64,000 bases of DNA. It comes from Owenia fusiformis. Lineage: Eukaryota; Annelida; Polychaeta; Sabellida; Oweniidae. The stretch spans positions 19,103,936 to 19,167,935 of the forward strand of contig CAIIXF020000006.1 in NCBI GenBank assembly GCA_903813345.2, written 5' to 3'. Below are positions 8,318 through 50,624 of this stretch, one piece after another. How positions within the stretch are numbered: the stretch's first letter is position 1; the number at the start of each line of letters is the position of its first letter. The notes beneath the pieces are model-generated. The model did not search any database. It was not told where the DNA came from and saw nothing but the letters and a program-made list of their open reading frames with translations. The position numbers and the translations under genes were made by a program.

Positions 8318-9022
8318 AATTAGGAAAGAAATGGACATCAAGGGCAAAAAATAGTTCCAGGGGACCATAATTTTACACATCTCAATGTTTGTGTTCTTCA
8401 GAACAATGCTTAATGTCTCCAACTTTTTTTGTGGATGGCATTTGGTGGTTGGCTTTCAGCATCTGTAACAAATTCTTATCATTTGCAATGACTTACAAGG
8501 TGGTGACATATTAATGCCTTGTTAATTAATATTATTAATATAATGTGTAATACAAGACCAATACATAAAGAACAAAGTTGTTTAAGCCTCATCATAAATG
8601 TATGTTTTACTTTTGAATTTTATTGAAAATAAACGTTTTGGATAAGGTAAGGGGAAATTATCTTGAAAATAAAAAAAATAGCCTATTTATGGAACAAAAG
8701 TTTAAAGATTTGTATTGTTGTTGCTACATTTGGACGTAGGAAAAATGTAATTATGATTGAATTTTCCAACTGATTTTGTAACTTTTTATATACATTGAAT
8801 ATAATGTACAAATGTATATGTAAATTTATCTCAACAATTGATCCTAAAATACACCCAAGTATAACGCACAAGAACTCACAACATCAACAGATTTTGAGAT
8901 GGATCTTTGTTCTGCATGTATCAGTTTGAAAAATTGAGGACTTTTTCAATCCTTGATATTGTAATGACTCTTTGATAGCAAGTCGTTATATATATATATA
9001 CAGTCTTGGCTGTAGTGGGTAG

Positions 9023-9091
9023 CCCCTTTAGCTAAGTAGTAAAGTGTCAGTCTTGTGACCGGAGGGTCCTTGGTTCAATTCCCACATGGGG
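9023..9091 (+). repeat. tRNA-derived repeat head (SINE-like)
   Basis: A cloverleaf-like stretch with box A (TTAGCTAAGTAGTAAAG), an anticodon-type loop CTTGTGA, and box B (GGTTCAATTCC). The acceptor stem keeps only CCCC/GGGG with mismatches below, so it is a SINE head or tRNA pseudogene rather than a working tRNA. A short TA run precedes it (8988-9000). Confidence 0.6.
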
Positions 9092-10278
9092 TAATAATAA
9101 TCCCTGGTCGTTACAATATTACAAAAATAAGTTTCTATCAAAGTCCATTGATGCTGTAAGTAAGAAATTGTTATAGATTTTCAATATTTTGGGGTATTTT
9201 AGTGTCTTCTTAGAAATGAACCACTATTTAAAATGTTGTTATGTGAACAAAGAGATATAATATGCCCTCTGTTTTGAATGATTGTTTTTTAAATGACTAA
9301 CTTACTATCTATAATTTTGTATGACCTGTATATATTGCTGTCACTGTCAGTTGTATTGTAAATTTAGTTTTATTCTTAGTAGTGCTGAAGTAAGAATTGT
9401 AGATAAAAATGTATGAGTTTTTGTACCTTAGTGTTATTTATCTTCAGTGAATAAATACATTCTAAAATCTTACACAAAATATAGTTCTGCTCTTGCATTT
9501 TGATTACAATGATTCAAGGGGTTCACAAATATAAAAGGAAGAGTACAGGGTGGTTCAAAAAGTGGAACATTGGTTGAATTTGTTAATCACAAGAAGATGG
9601 GTCATACTGTCATATAAAATGTGCTTGTTACACATTACCACGAAAGGCTACATCTATAAACTTTACAACCAATGCACATTTGAATGAGCTAAAATAAAAC
9701 AGTGGTGTACATTTACATATTTAAGTAAAAAATTATCGTCAGCATAAAAGACCATTCTCGATTTGGAGAACGAAGTTCGTCACTCTAATTGACCTTTTCC
9801 ATATAAATGAAAAATAGATGGCATCATGGGTATTGGTAGAGCTTGGGTAGGGCTAGAATACATGTAAATGTATTGCCAGAGTCACTTAATTTCTTGATTT
9901 AAGAAGTAATTCCATTTGGATCAACTTAAAACATCATTGGGATGTAACTTTATGATCTTATTGACATGTGGATTGTGATTTCACATTAAAATTGTGATCC
10001 TTGGAAGAGTAAATGAACTTTTTAAGGTTTTTCAGCATTGTGTCAATGGGGATTTAGCCCGACCTTTTTTAGACGACCAGTAAATCATTAGAATTTGAAT
10101 AATGGTAAATAACAGTGCAAATCAAAGTTGTTTTGATAGAGAATTACTCACAGAATTCAAATATGCCATCAGATGGAAGAAAACACTAGTTTTTAATGGT
10201 TAAAAATGCAGATCTCCTAAAATCTCATTAAAAACAAGACCTTAACGAGATTTCAAAGCTATATGGAAAAAGGACCAT

Positions 10279-41257: not shown

Positions 41258-44200
41258 ATGGCAGAACAAGTATGTAAAACATGCCTTACGTTTATAATAA
41301 ATATTATACTTTCTGAACTACAACTTTCAAATACATTGATCTTAACGCTTCGGATATGTAATGGAGTATCTATCAACATTGTCATTATGAAAATTAAAGC
41401 TCAAGAAGCTGTGAAACCCATCCTCTTCGATACAAATAATTAAAAATGGTGAAATTTTTAAAGAAATTATGTTCAAATTTCTACCTCGAGCAAGACAGGT
41501 TAGGCTACCTGAAAAAGAAGATAGATATTATATCTCTTCTCTAAACAAGCACTGTCAGAGAGGTAATTGCCTACCCTGGCTGAAATCAGCTCTGAAATGA
41601 CAAATACTGCATGCTCAGCCTTCAAGGCTGATTTTGTAGAAAACAGATCTGTCGATCCTTCTCTTACATGGGAGATTTTAGCCTAAAGATACATTGAGTA
41701 TAAATCCATCAGATTTTACCCCCAAGAATGTCCATTTCAACTGTACATCAACCGCATGAGGAAATAAAACAAATTGATCCCGGGGAGGGAAATTCTCTAT
41801 CGAAAAGAAGAACATTAGCCAATCAAAACAATGTTCTACTTTTCTATCGTGTCTCCCGGGAATTTCCTTACGGGAATGTGATATCGTTTGAAAAATAGGT
41901 GTGAAAATAAATTTGTTCCTCTGCGAACTGCATCATGGGAAATATTTTGACCTTATAAGGAACATTTTTCGCGTCTCCTCTTTTGAAGAGGGAATTACGA
42001 TCTGCTCATTTGTACGGATCATTCAATTTGATTTTAATTTTGTAAAAGACTGACTGATCTCCAATTCTCCAACTTGCATGAGAGCAGCCCAATATTTATG
42101 CAATCTTGAATATCATGTATTATTTTGTGTGTGCAGTGTTACTACAGTCCGATGTAGCGAATATATTATTCTCGCGAACTTGAAAAATAATCAGCAAAGA
42201 TAAGCAACCACAGTGCAATATTACGTGAAGAATATATACATATTTTGGATACAAAATGTTTGTATATTTTGGATGGTTTGCCGTTTAGCTATGTAATGAC
42301 CTGTTGTATTCTGATACATGTACTTCCCTGACGTTTTTCTCAAAATGTTTTCTGACAGTGTCCACAACTTTAGAACATTGATGGTATGTTGCCTTGTTTA
42401 CCTTTTAGACTGAGCGTGCGTTTCAAAAGCAGCCTACTATATTCTTGAACAAGAAGAAGGCTCTTGTGAGTGGTAAAAAGCAAGAGCGCTTTGTGAGAAG
42501 TGTCGGCTTGGGATTCAAGACTCCACGTGAAGTAAGTCACATCTGATAATACCATACCATTTTTAACCTGGTTATACATAATTTCTTCAAACCTGGAAAT
42601 GTCTCTTGAAAATTTTATGGAAGTATATATATCCAATTGGTAAAAATAATGTATACAGTCCAATTCAAAACTCTATTGAGAACTTATAATTTAAAAATAA
42701 GCAATTAAATGGCCATATTGCAACAGTATTTGGAAAAATAGAAACATATACAAGGCCTTTACTTTTGTATATTTCAGATAGTTATGTATATTGTGCAGCT
42801 AATTTCAGCCATGTTAATTTTTCCGAAAATAACATGGCAGAGAAGCATCAAAATATAAGAGCTACACAAATGATAGCCAAACTACAAAACAAATTAAAAT
42901 ATACAAAAGTTAGGCCAATTATGAATGTTTCTATGTTTTCATGTACTGTTTCAATGTGGTCCTTGGATTGCTTATTTTTTAGATTCAAAGTACGCAATGA
43001 AATTATGAATCTGACTTACATATTTACAAGAATAAGAGAAACCAAATCCTACACATTGAAACTACCTTGATAATAAACGATGGCATTATAATTATGAGGT
43101 TGTTTTGAAAAGCTGGAATGATGAGACTTCACGATGGTCTTCTGAATTAATTATAAAAAAGTTGATAAACCTGGGTCGCTGACCAGCTTTTGGAGTTCTG
43201 TAGGAAAACCAATATTCAAATTAGCTTACAATGTGTATTGTCACAACCAATATTGTGAAATGGTGCAGTCTTACCCACCTTATATGCATAGCATTTGTTT
43301 CACAATAATCTAGTCATTGCATCAATCAAAAGATTCTAGCTATCTGTTACTATTAAATAACAATCATTAATCCTCCAATTTACAATGCTACATTTTAATT
43401 TTTGTTTCAGGCCACAGAGGGAACCTATGTTGATAAAAAATGTCCATTCACTGGCAAGATTAACATTCGTGGAAGAATCCTTTCAGGCATTGTTTTTAAG
43501 ATGAAGATGCAGCGTACCATCGTCATTCGTAGGGATTACCTGCACTATGTCAAGAAATACAACAGATTTGAGAAGCGACACAGGAACATGTCTGTCCACT
43601 GCAGTCCTGCATTCAGGTTTGTGAATAAAATATGGTGTACTTTATAAGACTTGTGATGTACAGTTTTTTAGGGGAGCAATAAGTGTTAGCATAATTACAT
43701 TCTAAATTTTTATGGTCATTATTCCCATGATTTAGATGTTTTAATCTATACTCCATAGAATAATTAGGTTCTAGATAATATTGTCAAAATCTCAGCTGTT
43801 TGCAATTATACCCAAATGCTTCTGTTCCAAGGAGACTAATCCAGGCATTTTCCATTTTATCTTTAATATCTAATCATGTTCATCCCTTGACAGCAGATAC
43901 TCTAGTAGTGGTTAATTTACTCATCAATTACTTCAAAGCTTCTGCCTTAGAAACAAGTGTATGGTTCAGTTACTGTTTATTCAGCATTATCCTCGAGTTA
44001 AAACCATCTTTTTATTTAGTGATTAATTGGGATTGAATTTGACAACTTAATTATTATGAGCTTACAAGTGAAGACAAGTAAGTTATTTGAAAATTAATCT
44101 GGATGCCTTTTTATCAATTTAAGACATCAGGTTTATTTTCCCCATGTTATTAAATTCACATTGAAAAGCGGAGGTTTTATATTGGCAGCAAGCATCTGGA

Positions 44201-47200
44201 GAAAAACCTATTATTTTACCAGATTTTACCTCAACAATTTTCATGTTTAGATTTTTAATAATTTGGCCTTTTCATTGTTTGCGAGATACTGTGGTAAAAC
44301 CAGACCTTGGTACATAAATTAAATAGACTCCTGATGAGATATTTATTCAGACTTTATTTTTCAACTTAAGGCCAAACAAAAATATATGTCCGTTTCCGGA
44401 ACCCCGACCGACCCTAGTTTGAACCCCCGACCCAGACATTTTTTAGTACACTGAAAAATAAAATATTCTATCTCTGCCCCTACTCGATTGAAACAATACA
44501 TTTCCTTCTGAAATGTTTTACTCACATCAGGCCCAGGTGTCCATATTTCTCATACCCTGGAACACTTGCAGTAATATTATCGTTAGGGCCCCCAAAACAC
44601 TTGGAACACAGGAAATATTGTTTATTTTCTTGAAAAGTTCGCCATTTTTGCTCTTCAAAATAGAGGCCCGCAATCAACTCCCAGAGGGGTCTAGCAATTG
44701 CTAGGGAGACATCTAAGGTTTCGGGTTTCACCCCCTTCAATAAAATTTGCAATTCCCATTTTACCATGCAGATTTGAAATAAGAAAAATAAAATCTTGGA
44801 GGGAAACTCGAAAACACAACAGCTATTTGCATAAATTTTTCACCCTGACCTTTCACTTAGGAATGTTTATAGTGGGAAATTTGAATGTTTATACCACATG
44901 ATTGGTCTATTATAGTTTGATCTGATCACATGACTTATCATCATCATCACGTTTAGGAGGGGTGGAGGCTTTATACCCTGTAATGTTCTCCCATCTGATC
45001 TATTAAAAATTAAAACTGAATTTAGGGTAGGGAACTGATTATTGCTCACTAGTGGCTATTTGTAAAGATCTGAGTACCATGCCTTGTCCAGGAGGGTTTT
45101 GAAGTGGGAAACTATCAATGATACTCTGGGAGAGGGAATTCCAATGTACCACATGAAAATGTTATGTTCTCACAGAGACAAGTTTTCTCTGAATTGTTTG
45201 AATTAAAAATATTCTTCTAAGGTCTTCTAAAGCTGATTCTGTTTATTTTTGAGTCAGAAAAATTATATTTTTGAGGCATATATTAATATGATGACAACTT
45301 TGTAACCTCTGCTGATCCAGTGCTAAATATACTGATATTTGATGTCCATGAAGGCCTTTATCCAGAAGTTTCGAATGTTATGATGGAATAAAATTGATAA
45401 TAGATCAACAGATCAATAGACTTGTTTATTATTATTATTATATAGGGCTAGTGTCAAGGAAAACTTTGTTTTATCGCGATAAGGCCAAACAAAAATATAT
45501 GTCCGTTTCCGGAACCCCGACCGACCCTAGTTTGAACCCCCGACCCTAAGACATTTTTTAGTACACTGAAAAATAAAATATTCTATCTCTGGCCCTACTC
45601 GATTGAAACAATACATTTCCTTCTGAAATGTTTTACTCACATCAGGCCCAGGTGTCCATATTGCTCATACCCTGGAACATTTGCAGTAATATTATCGTTA
45701 GGGCCCCCAAAACACTTGAAACACAGGAAATATTGTTTATTTTCTTGAAAAGTTCGCCATTTTTGCTCTTCAAAATGGAGGCCCGCAATCAACTCCCAGA
45801 GGGGTCTAGCAATTGCTAGGGAGACATCTATAACACTAAGTACTAACTTGGTTTCGGGTTTCACCCCCTTCAATAAAATTTGCAATTCCCATTTTACCAT
45901 GCAGATTTGAAATAAGAAAAATAAAATCTTGGGGAGGGAAACCCGAAAACACAACAGCTATTTGCATAAATCAGCCTGACCTTTCACTTAGGAATGTTTA
46001 TAGTGGGAAATTTGAATTTGAATATTAAGACCACATGATTGGTCTATTATAGTTTGATCTGATCACATGACTTATCATCATCATTATCAAGTTTAGGAGG
46101 GGTGGAGGCTTTATACCCTGTAATGTTCTCCCATCTGATCTATTAAAATTAAAACTGAATTTAGGGTAGGGAACTGATTATTGCTCACTAGTGGCTATTT
46201 GTAAAGATCTGAGTACCATGTAGAAGTGAAGTGGGAAACTGACGTGGCATCAATGATACTCTGGGAGAGGGAATTCCAATGTACCAGATGAAAATGTTAC
46301 GTTCTCACAGAGACAAGTTTTCTCTGAATTGTTTGAATTAAAAATATTCTTCTAAGGTCTTCTAAAGCTGATTCTGTTTATTTTTGAGTCAGAAAAATTA
46401 TATTTTTGAGGCATATATAATATGATGACAACTTTGTAACCTCTGCTGATCCAGTGCTAAATATACTGATATTCGATTTCCATGAAGGCCTTTATCCAGA
46501 AGTTTCGAATGTTATGGTGGAATAAAATTGATAATAGATCAACAGATCAATAGACTTGTTTATTATTATATAGGCCTAGTGTAAAGGAAAACTTTGTCTT
46601 ATCGCGATAATAACAATTTCAAGCGATAATAACAACTACCTTCCTTTGGTATTTAGTTACCTGGAAAAAATCTTACGTAACAATTTTCAATACCAGGTGA
46701 GAAAGTTAAGTTCGAACCCTGACCAAGTTGTTTATTTAGTTCAATATCTGAAGGTTTTAAGTAAGTACGGATCAAATGATTATAGATTGCATGATGAATT
46801 AAGGTCTCATGGCAGTTAAGAGCAAATGACAAAACGAAGAGATGACAAAAAACATAAGATAAAATATTTTTCTGACTGACCTACCCTAAAAAAAATTGAG
46901 TAAAATTTTAATGAAAAATAAAATAATCCTCCTACCTACCTACCCTAATCTGAAAATACATGGAGCAGGAAACAGACATATATTTTTGTTTGGCCTAATA
47001 ACAATTTCAAGCGATAATAACAACTACCTTACTTTGGTATTTAGTTACCTAGAAAAAATCTCACGTAACAATTTTCAATACCAGGCGAGAAAGTTAAGTT
47101 CGAACCCTGACCAAGTTGTTTATTTAGTTCAATATCTGAAGGTTTTAAGTAAGTATGGATCAAATGATTATAGACTGCATGATGAATAATGCAGTGTGGC

Positions 47201-50200
47201 AAATAAGAGGTCGCCAAACGCCAAAAACAGGGAGTGAAAAAAATTTGGCGATAGAAGTTGCGATCTATCTCAACAATTTTGGCGATGGATGTTAGAACTT
47301 CACAGTTTTTATCCCCGACATTCTTGAAAAATGAAGTTTCATAGTTGATCCTATTCCCATTCACAAAGCTTTTTATTCTACCTAAAACATGATCAGAATA
47401 GAAGAACATAAAGCCACCTACCTTAGAGAAGAACAATTTGAAGTAAAATAGCCAGATAATCATCAGTATTTAGAAAAAAACACTGAAAAATCATCTAAAT
47501 TTTGCCGTGAGCAGGCAGGAAGTTAGCCTACTCAGAGGTAACAATTTTGGTATTGTATCTGTATTGATCGCACTGCCATCTTTATAACTTATGAAAAACT
47601 GTTGAAGTCAGGATTCATTTATAACAACCAGATACCTGTCTAGAACTCCTTGCACATTTGATTCCTTTATTTGTTTATCCTCATTAGACTAAAAAAAGTT
47701 CATGATGTTCATTTTAAAGAGGTTCAATTCAAAAGATGCTACATTTTCAAAATATTGATCTCTCCAAACTCTGAAATAAAAGCTTCTTTGATGATACATA
47801 CTCTAGCAGTATAGCCTAATAACACAATTTTCTTTATCTATATTGTTAGTACATACAACTCTAGTGTAGACATTTGATCAGCATGCTCCGTCTAATTTAC
47901 CCTCAAAAAATTTTGAGTAAACAACCTACCTACCTGCCTAGTGCCTACCCCAAATCTGAAATTTCATTGATCAGGAAACAGACATGTGTGGCCTTTCCAC
48001 TTATTTTAAGCAGTTTAATTTACCATTCGTAATTCATGAACAGATTAAGATGAGGGCAAAATTTATACTGACTAGACAAAATTATGGCCAGACGAAAAAT
48101 ATTTTGGCGAGAGTGTTTCAAATGTCTCTGGACAAATCTGGCTATAGTGAAAAAAATCCTTATTTGCCAGACTGATAATGGTCTCATGGCAGTTAAGAGC
48201 AAATGGCAAAACAAGAGATGACAAAACACATAAGATAAAATATTTTCTGACTGACCTACCCTAAAAAAATTGAGTAAAATTTTAATGAAAAATAAAATAA
48301 TCCTCCTACCTACCTAAACTAATCTGAAAATACATGGAGCAGGAAACAGACATATATTTTGTTTGGCCTAAATATACCAATTACTATTGATGCTGGTATG
48401 ATGAGACTACACGATTGTCTTCTGATTCTAATGCAGATAAACCTGGGTCGCTGACCAGCTTAGAAGAGCTCATTTATTAGCTATTTCATTTAAAATTGTA
48501 TCTGTTTTAACTTTAACCTTTTTTTCATGGAAGTTCTATTCATTCTGAAAAAAATCTGCAAGAAAAATGGAAATTCTGCAACTGATTCATTCCCGGATGC
48601 CCATCCGTCTCGAGTACACAAAGGTATTCGAATGATCTTGATCTTGATAGTGCAGAGAAATCTTAATTTTACTGAGTGGCTCCAAGAAAAAATAACAAGT
48701 TTATTGGACCCCTAAACTATATATTCTCCGAGATAAATCTAGATTTAGCATTCCCCTGATAAACTACTGCTTAGCCAATCTGGTGGGATTTCAAAGTCTA
48801 TTACATTTCAAAGCAAATCTGATGTTACTTACTTTTCACATCAATGTCTGTTAGAACTAAAATAAGGACTTAAAGTCCCCTAGGTCCAGAAAATAAATCC
48901 GATCTCGTCTTCTAATCAATTTTGAGCACAAATCTGTAATGAGTCATTAAACAGACATTTATAAAAAAAATATCAATCTCTTGAGAAGAGCACAATATAA
49001 GAGATAGATAAACTATAGGGGAAATCCTTTAATGATGTTCAGCTTAATTATCCCACTGAAACTAGTTTTTGTGGCTCTAAGGAAAAAAAGCCATCTGTCA
49101 TCGGCCTGTCCATTCTGCTGGTACAGATAATGGTTGAAATATTTGGTTGAAATTTTATAGGTTGATACCTTGTGGGCTTAGGACTTCTGCACTCAGGGGT
49201 TTCATTAGCAGCAGGTAGCGGTTTTCACCGGTTTTTTTCACAAAATCGCCTGTTGCTTTTAGGGACTTTTCAACTTTTCCGTCCTCAATTTATGATTTCC
49301 ATTAATTTTGACTGTTGTATTCATTTATTTAGCCTGTTGTGAGAAATTCTAGTGAAACCCCTTGCACTAGATTAATTTTTTTGAAAAATGGTAACTTTGA
49401 TATCTCAAGTATCAGTTGTCAGATTTGATCCAACTTAAGAGTAAAATGCTTAAAAATTTAATAGCAGAGAATAACTTGTATGTAGAAATTCATACACAGA
49501 ATTAATATGGCTCTTTAGACATGTTATATTGAAGTACTTTAATTCCTCACTATATAGGCTGAACTTACTTCCTGCTAAAGCTATTTGGATTTTGATATAA
49601 TGGCTTTCCCACGGAGCATTTGGACAGCTGAATGATTGTGACCTTTGAAATCGAATTAAGTCGATCCGCGGCTTACTTTTGGTCTCTAACTGTGTCTTAC
49701 ATCAGTATCATCAATCCGTGTAAGTATTAGAGCGCTGAAATACTTCTTTTTCGATCAAGACTTGTAAATTGTTCATCGAGTGAATGTTTTTTAGACCTAT
49801 TTCCAATATGGCGGTTTGCTAGGAGCGAGATACGCAAAGAACGAAATGAATTTTGAGAATTAGTTAGGTTCGGACAACCTCCGTAGATTTACGAAAATGT
49901 CCGAGCAGAAAACGCCATATTGGAATTTGGCAGTAAAAACATTCACTCGACTAACAATTACAAGTCTTGATCGAAAAGGAAGTACTTCAGCACTCCAATA
50001 CTTACACGGATTGATGATACTGATGTAAGACACAGTTAGAGACCAAAAGTAAGCCGCGGATCGACTTAATTCGATTTCAAAGGTCACTATTAATCAGCTG
50101 TTCACTTCCCCGTTTGAGAGCCATAAGTTTCAAAATCTAACATGGCTCTCGAAGTGAGTAAGGCTGAACTCATTAAAATCCTTTACTTGACTTGATTTCC

Positions 50201-50624
50201 TTGTGGCCATGCTCTCTATCTTTTACCACATGTTCCAGGCATGTGAATCTATTAAGTATGCAGCATCCTTGTCTGTCAACTCATTTTGTGCAGAAGAACT
50301 TCTTAAACTGTGCTAACTTTCTATGAGACCAAAATCCTGTCATGTTTATCGCTAAGAACACGATTATTGCAGGTACATTATACATGTATGCTCATGTATG
50401 GATTATACACATCTGGTTGAATTATGGAACTTAAATTTCTATACACTATAATTTCAATTTTTATGTGCTTGAATTAACTTGTACTTCTATATACTTCCAG
50501 GGATGTTGCTGTCGGAGACATTGCAACAGTTGGAGAGTGCAGACCCCTTAGCAAGACCGTCAAATACAACCTCTTGAAGGTTACCAAAACTGCGGCTGGC
50601 AAGAAAGCTTTCGCCAAGTTTTAG
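41258..50624 (+). CDS. RPS11: 40S ribosomal protein S11 (uS17), 4 exons, 154 aa
   Basis: Component of the small cytosolic ribosomal subunit that binds 18S rRNA. Exons: 41258-41269 (MAEQ), 42409-42531, 43411-43616, 50501-50624; all introns GT/AG and phases join to 465 bases with stop. Seen: [12 protein letters not shown] near the N-terminus, [43 protein letters not shown], and the S17 signature [13 protein letters not shown] at residues 119-131, ending KKAFAKF. Vertebrate RPS11 has 158 residues; the difference lies in a shorter loop before GLGFKTP. The first exon codes only four residues, so the start depends on the splice at 41269. Introns 2 and 3 host C/D snoRNAs; the 6.9-kb intron 3 is swollen by mobile elements. 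Confidence 0.98.
43109..43190 (+). ncRNA. SNORD35: Box C/D snoRNA, SNORD35 (U35)-like, in RPS11 intron 2
   Basis: An 82-base unit with an 8-bp terminal stem (AAAGCTGG at 43109-43116 with CCAGCTTT at 43183-43190), box C ATGATGA (43118-43124), box D' CTGA (43142-43145), a C'-like TTGATAA (43162-43168) and box D CTGA (43179-43182). The guide before D', TCACGATGGTCTT (43129-43141), is the U35 guide directed at the 28S rRNA segment AGACCGTCGTGA; the fifth base before D' pairs with the C of AGAC, the known U35 methylation site. The host gene is the one that carries SNORD35B in human. The second guide, before box D, has no target I recognise. Confidence 0.9.
44370..46610 (+). repeat. 1.1-kb direct tandem duplication inside the intronic element
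   Basis: Unit A (44370-45482) and unit B (45483-46610) begin with the same GGCCAAAC end and finish with ATCGCGATAA. They are nearly identical apart from a roughly 20-base insertion in B near 45830 and small indels. A further pair of repeated blocks follows: 46611-46800 with 46998-47190, and 46801-46995 with 48178-48368. Confidence 0.85.
44370..48368. mobile_element. Composite DNA element with inverted ends in RPS11 intron 3
   Basis: The left end begins GGCCAAACAAAAATATATGT (44370) and the right end is its inverse, finishing GTTTGGCC at 48368; both sides abut TAA (44367-44369 and 48369-48371), fitting a 3-bp target duplication. The left end occurs twice (44370, 45483) and the right end twice (46995, 48368), so the structure is nested or recombined. 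No recognisable transposase is seen; the 105- to 140-codon open frames inside (45637-45954 minus, 47041-47463 minus) match nothing I know and overlap the repeats. Confidence 0.75.
48392..48459 (+). ncRNA. Second box C/D snoRNA copy (U35-like) in RPS11 intron 3
   Basis: A paralogue of the unit in intron 2: terminal stem GCTGG/CCAGC, box C ATGATGA (48398-48404), D' CTGA (48422-48425), box D CTGA (48451-48454), and an identical ACCTGGGTCG before box D. The D' guide reads ACACGATTGTCTT and differs from the intron 2 copy at two positions, one next to the base that pairs with the modified residue, and the C' box is weaker. It could be a functional variant with a changed target or a decaying duplicate. 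It starts 24 bp after the right end of the composite element that fills this intron. Confidence 0.75.
49194..49361. mobile_element. CAGGGGTTTC-ended miniature element, copy 2 (in RPS11 intron 3)
   Basis: About 80 percent like copy 1 at 2181-2353 by eye, with the same terminal inverted ends. TGCACT occurs on both sides (49188-49193 and 49362-49367), a probable target duplication if the last base of the right end has been lost. Confidence 0.75.
49625..50101. mobile_element. Fold-back element in RPS11 intron 3
   Basis: Arms of about 200 bases run inward from CAGCTG (49625) and CAGCTG (50101): left GACCTTTGAAATCGAATTAA and GTCGATCCGCGG, with exact inverses on the right. The centre 49826-49902 is not paired fully. 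The 75-codon open frame at 49860-50087 lies wholly in the right arm and is spurious. Confidence 0.85.

Follow-up and report, generated by a model that had tools for sequence, protein, structure and literature searches.

Two box C/D units in the introns of RPS11

The second and third introns of the RPS11 gene of the annelid Owenia fusiformis each harbour one box C/D unit, and it is very probable that both are intron-encoded genes of the U35/SNORD35 kind (snR73 in yeast), unit 1 guiding modification at the U35 site of the large subunit rRNA and unit 2 being a constrained paralogue with a weakened guide. The sequence elements, the host introns, the copy number and the complementarity to conserved LSU rRNA, on which this reading is built, were observed directly in the DNA. 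Positions are collected in Table 1 and refer to the window, i.e. the whole stretch of 64,000 nucleotides that was analysed.

Table 1. Positions in the window of the RPS11 exons and introns and of the elements of the two box C/D units
Feature	Position	Strand	Basis or remark
RPS11 exon 2 (TERAFQKQ...GFKTPRE)	42409..42531	+	tblastn 61%; Pfam Ribosomal_S17_N
RPS11 intron 2	42532-43410	+	contains unit 1
Unit 1, U35-type box C/D snoRNA, RPS11 intron 2	43108..43191	+	boxes, stem, Rfam scan, genome pattern scan
Unit 1 C box ATGATGA	43118-43124	+	no mismatch
Unit 1 D' guide TCACGATGGTCTT	43129..43141	+	12 bp (one G-U) to LSU AGACCGTCGTGA; -21.3 kcal/mol
Unit 1 D' box CTGA	43142-43145	+	perfect
Unit 1 C' box TTGATAA	43162-43168	+	2 mismatches
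Unit 1 D-box arm AAACCTGGGTCG	43167..43178	+	candidate accessory pairing beside U35 site
Unit 1 D box CTGA	43179-43182	+	no mismatch
RPS11 exon 3 (...SPAFR)	43411..43616	+	tblastn 79%; splice sites
RPS11 intron 3	43617-50500	+	contains unit 2
Unit 2, paralogous box C/D snoRNA, RPS11 intron 3	48391..48461	+	81% identity to unit 1; boxes and stem intact
Unit 2 C box ATGATGA	48398-48404	+	perfect
Unit 2 D' guide ACACGATTGTCTT	48409..48421	+	two changes relative to unit 1; -13.7 kcal/mol
Unit 2 D' box CTGA	48422-48425	+	perfect
Unit 2 D-box arm	48439..48450	+	identical to unit 1
Unit 2 D box CTGA	48451-48454	+	perfect
RPS11 exon 4 (...AKF, stop)	50501..50624	+	tblastn 73%

The host gene was recognized as RPS11 (uS17) by the joined exon peptide, which matched Pfam Ribosomal_S17_N (2e-30) and Ribosomal_S17 (3e-24). 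The exons were placed by tblastn with the human RPS11 protein as query (61-79% identity), and the introns read from the sequence are bounded by consensus splice sites. RPS11 is a broadly expressed gene. Both units stand in the sense orientation, one in each of introns 2 and 3, as is expected of intron-encoded snoRNAs. Against the reading of them as such genes, each is far from its 3' splice site, unit 1 by about 220 nt and unit 2 by about 2040 nt; the imperfect C' boxes, the low Rfam scores and the missing 28S target, all described below, count against it too.

A box C/D snoRNA was defined by a C box (RUGAUGA) and a D box (CUGA) closed by a terminal stem within 60-100 nt. In both units the C and D boxes are free of mismatches and nine stem pairs are formed, in unit 1 as the 9-bp stem AAAAGCTGG/CCAGCTTTT and in unit 2 with one internal mismatch. 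The internal D' and C' boxes are present in both: D' is a perfect CTGA, and C' is imperfect, with three mismatches in unit 2 (CAGATAA); this box is commonly degenerate. The terminal stem scores of -110 (unit 1) and -75 (unit 2) both fall below the 'expressed' filter of SnoBIRD, -25 (PMC12309372).

An earlier note on this DNA had described, in a gene it named as RPS11, a complete C/D snoRNA in intron 2 with a U35-type D' guide containing one G-U pair and the modified C at +5, and a second unit in intron 3 with the same D-box guide and an altered D' guide. The analysis bore out each of these points.

Complementarity to the U35 site

Positions 2-13 of the unit 1 D' guide pair with the LSU rRNA in the 12-bp duplex, and guide position 5 (43137, G) faces the U35 cytidine, the first C of GACC, known as human 28S Cm4506 (PMC3511168; PMC6466398). 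The G-U pair is no local divergence, since the Rfam SNORD35 consensus yields the same one. A SNORD35/U35 guide was taken to form at least 10 bp with the LSU U35 site and to place the target C at the +5 nucleotide. Unit 1 does so; in unit 2 two mismatches leave 6 bp as the longest unbroken run.

The O. fusiformis 28S across the U35 site was not found in the searchable assembly, where the U35 stretch found no match and 28S/18S occurred only as a truncated, rearranged copy (G000 C10:25644134). In the other genomes searched, a 33-nt LSU string round the U35 site recurs letter for letter in LSU rRNA of both eukaryotes and archaea; some of these exact matches lie on eukaryotic rDNA contigs present as contamination in bacterial MAG records. 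We infer that the U35 target may reasonably be assumed to be conserved in the O. fusiformis 28S as well.

Two observations on these rDNA records stand apart from the guide. In the region of the truncated copy (G000 C10:25640000-25649900, L019) the truncated 28S is fused to a shortened 18S, and an apparent coding sequence lies upstream and ends before the rRNA; the locus is probably an rDNA-derived or R2-like junction and no working rDNA unit. The contaminating eukaryotic rDNA contigs (LSU_rRNA_eukarya) were met in the bacterial-filed MAGs L029, L035, L039, L040, L042, L046, L049 and L052.

For expression, assembly and methylation by the units we infer the following course. Both would be transcribed inside the RPS11 pre-mRNA, and exonucleolytic trimming of the spliced intron lariats to the terminal stem would release them for assembly with 15.5K, Nop56, Nop58 and fibrillarin. 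The D' guide of unit 1 would base-pair with AGACCGTCGTGA, which belongs to the peptidyl-transferase domain of the 28S, and the cytidine at the fifth position from D' (human Cm4506) would thereby receive its 2'-O-methyl group. Unit 2 probably acts via its unchanged D half, or as a poor U35 guide.

Relation to known U35 families

In a permissive cmscan of 7 kb, unit 1 scored 35.1 bits with sn3071 (E 1.1e-4), a match that tops its list across the 498-Mb genome (E 0.0018), and 23.5 bits with SNORD35 (RF00211); unit 2 gave 19.0 and 19.5 bits with RF00211 and RF01166, respectively. The Rfam gathering cut-offs are 36 (RF00211) and 40 (RF01166). Because these scores lie under the cut-offs, neither unit is reported at curated thresholds, and default Rfam annotation misses the RPS11-hosted copies. 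A covariance search with Rfam SNORD35, which the earlier note had proposed as a check, detected both units in the 7 kb scanned, at scores short of the 36-bit cut-off. Unit 1 is classed as U35-type by its guide and layout and not as a scored member of RF00211.

The guide core CACGATGGTCTT of unit 1 equals the Rfam consensus of SNORD35 (U35, RF00211), the vertebrate family for 28S Cm4506, including the G-U pair; the target and the +5 cytidine are the same, and one human copy is also RPS11-hosted. Unit 1 nevertheless differs from this family in its C-to-guide spacer, loop and D arm and remains under the 36-bit cut-off. Its best Rfam match is sn3071 (RF01166), which we take to be a nematode family and the C. 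elegans counterpart of U35. The two share ATGATGAGACT...TCACGA.GGTCTTC and the GCTGA layout, whereas the D arm is unlike and the 40-bit cut-off is not reached; a host gene of sn3071 was not found. The yeast and plant families snR73 and AtU35 have the same target site as unit 1 and have been placed, together with U35, in LECA (PMC3511168); among the matches listed, which hold only the best of the clan, neither unit matched these families.

Six U35 units in the genome

The pattern TGATGA-N3-14-CACGATNGTCTNCTGA was found six times in the genome and not once with the reversed control, about 0.009 matches being expected from composition. Instead of the two units of the earlier note there are thus six, two each in RPS11, BTF3 and PRRC2. 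The BTF3 host was recognized by its NAC domain and carries its two pattern-matched copies in successive introns; in PRRC2 the two copies are again intronic, and the same strand encodes a BAT2_N domain 3-4 kb upstream of them.

All four BTF3/PRRC2 copies share the guide TATCACGATGGTCTA, which forms 13 bp, a mismatch and then 4 more pairs (-24.1 kcal/mol). With SNORD35 they score 28.6-40.7 bits, above unit 1 of RPS11, and three of the four exceed the gathering score (36.4-40.7); none matches sn3071 at E up to 10. Since the RPS11 pair prefers sn3071, the genome, judged by these scores, contains two U35 subtypes, an sn3071-like one in RPS11 and a vertebrate SNORD35-like one in BTF3 and PRRC2. With four more U35 genes in the BTF3 and PRRC2 introns, the U35 site would be redundantly guided.

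The introns of BTF3 hold three U35 copies in a row (L017:4814, 5276 and 5651; G000 C1:43261.8-43262.7 kb), the third of which (L017:5651, TTTCACAATGATCTACT) follows the next BTF3 exon and is decayed, with D' lost. The PRRC2 loci (L005:1098-1170; L004:848-916 and 2114-2182; minus strand) also include a unit resembling SNORD110 (36.6 bits, E 1e-4, under the cut-off), with weaker SNORD82-like matches nearby, and PRRC2 may host several snoRNAs beyond its U35 copies.

History of the association between RPS11 and U35

By the exon boundaries (SPxFR^DV), intron 3 would correspond to intron 4 of vertebrate (chicken) RPS11. The good unit lies in intron 2, and the weakened unit 2 is alone in the counterpart of chicken intron 4. 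Ribosomal-protein introns often receive snoRNAs and are common landing sites, so convergence on the same host gene is plausible.

The competing historical account is that U35 already resided in RPS11 of the bilaterian ancestor and descended vertically to O. fusiformis and the vertebrates, and that it later moved from one intron to another, between 3 and 2. It concerns history and is compatible with the functional reading given above; we hold it tentatively, as somewhat less probable than its contrary. Besides the intron correspondence and the two units in O. fusiformis RPS11, it can draw on human RPS11, which hosts SNORD35B as the earlier note had said (PMC6466398), and on chicken RPS11, which hosts U35 in intron 4 (PMC2653536). 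However, U35 moves: BTF3 and PRRC2 host it in this genome, and RPL13A does so in human (PMC6466398). Of the six units, moreover, the RPS11 pair resembles vertebrate SNORD35 least (23.5 and 19.0 against 28.6-40.7 bits). Across eukaryotes the location of intronic snoRNAs is unstable over deep time, and their deep positional stability has been rejected (PMC3511168).

The earlier note's view that gene and guest appear never to have parted since the bilaterian ancestor is therefore unsupported as it was worded: U35 is multi-copy over several hosts in this genome, so a vertical host-guest association is not established, the four BTF3/PRRC2 copies are nearer to vertebrate SNORD35, and it is intron 2 that holds the good unit. 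Our literature searches yielded no report of an RPS11-hosted U35 from an invertebrate. One guide family distributed over three host genes of a single invertebrate genome, in what appear to be two sequence subtypes, makes a clean case, and a shared host gene is an unsafe sign of vertical inheritance.

Unit 2 as a probably constrained paralogue

Units 1 and 2 have their final 26 nt in common, from C' through the D arm and the D box to the stem, and outside this identical part only 4 of 36 non-loop positions are changed. The differences are concentrated in the loop, where 14 of 18 positions differ or are missing, compared with 4 of 62 elsewhere (p 5e-9); the divergence of the 3' half versus the 5' half, taken on its own, is not significant (p 0.13). 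Such a distribution would be the signature of constraint over drift in unit 2, though the identical 3' half may instead stem from gene conversion. As the flanks of the two units have no similarity, the copy is either old or was made by a route that moves the snoRNA alone. Through the two changes in the D' guide, one of them a mismatch adjoining the methylation position, the U35 duplex loses stability, from -21.3 to -13.7 kcal/mol. Unit 2 thus looks constrained, with its U35 guide weakened, a paralogue that retains the D half while the methylation guide has slackened.

That unit 2 is instead a pseudogene, a silent relic drifting in a repeat-swollen intron, appears unlikely to us. The two mismatched guide positions, one beside the methylation site, the poorest C' box and a place some 2 kb short of the 3' splice site, within an intron rich in repeats, would suit a relic; simple neutral drift, however, would spread the divergence evenly, and here it clusters in the loop, while the C and D boxes are perfect, the terminal stem is stable and the 26-nt 3' half is identical. 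By the thresholds of PMC12309372, unit 2 has neither the mutated boxes nor the unstable terminal stem of a pseudogene and passes the published expression filters, which predicts an 'expressed' call.

Retargeting of unit 2 to another RNA through its D' guide is improbable: the guide has changed twice while the boxes stayed intact, and it forms 10 consecutive pairs (two G-U) with human 18S AAGACGGTCG, but its best score, 18, is matched or beaten by 60% of shuffled guides, which average 18.4, no significant target emerged among the rRNAs and snRNAs scanned in comparison with those guides, and the matching stretch differs in the single 18S copy found in O. fusiformis. Where the earlier note had suggested duplication with retargeting or decay, the paralogy stands; decay is made unlikely by the boxes, the stem and the loop statistics, and for retargeting no significant target emerged. 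A constrained paralogue with a weakened guide remains our reading of unit 2.

The D arm and a candidate accessory pairing

The exact 18-mer comprising AAACCTGGGTCG and the D box occurs in the searched genome only at the two RPS11 units; near-matches to the D arm elsewhere are no commoner than for reversed controls, and four that were inspected lack the C-box and guide context. When the D arm was compared with human rRNAs and snRNAs, and also with LSU sequences of four eukaryotes, none of its scores exceeded those of shuffled guides overall. Locally, within 20 nt either side of the U35 site, the D arm pairs with GAGCTGGGTTTA directly 5' of the site (-13.5 kcal/mol; uncorrected shuffle p 0.004, both flanks having been tried after the fact). 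An alternative pairing joins AACCTG to CAGGTT 3' of the site (p 0.014), and this alternative has p 0.015-0.38 in the BTF3 and PRRC2 copies. These values give no more than a hint that the D arm may pair next to the site in the role of an accessory guide. Van Nues and Watkins described accessory pairing in over half the box C/D snoRNAs (PMC5389607), and the likeness to those snoRNAs is that the RPS11 D arm could, by prediction, pair directly beside the guide target. It is improbable that a single snoRNA uses both arms to hold an unbroken part of the peptidyl-transferase loop in a clamp and that unit 2 was selected for this clamp, as chaperone or accessory, after its methylation guide relaxed.

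Repeats in the window

Intron 3 is enlarged by nested repeats (44367-48374), among them a near-identical 1.1-kb tandem duplication (44367-45482 and 45480-46610), and the last repeat copy stops about 20 nt upstream of unit 2. The repeats have 29-32-nt inverted termini (AGGCCAAACAAAAATATATGTC...) beside TAA and look like copies of a DNA transposon. Elsewhere in the window, positions 9022-9093 gave an Rfam tRNA match of 34.7 bits that was not called by ARAGORN and possibly represents a tRNA-derived SINE.
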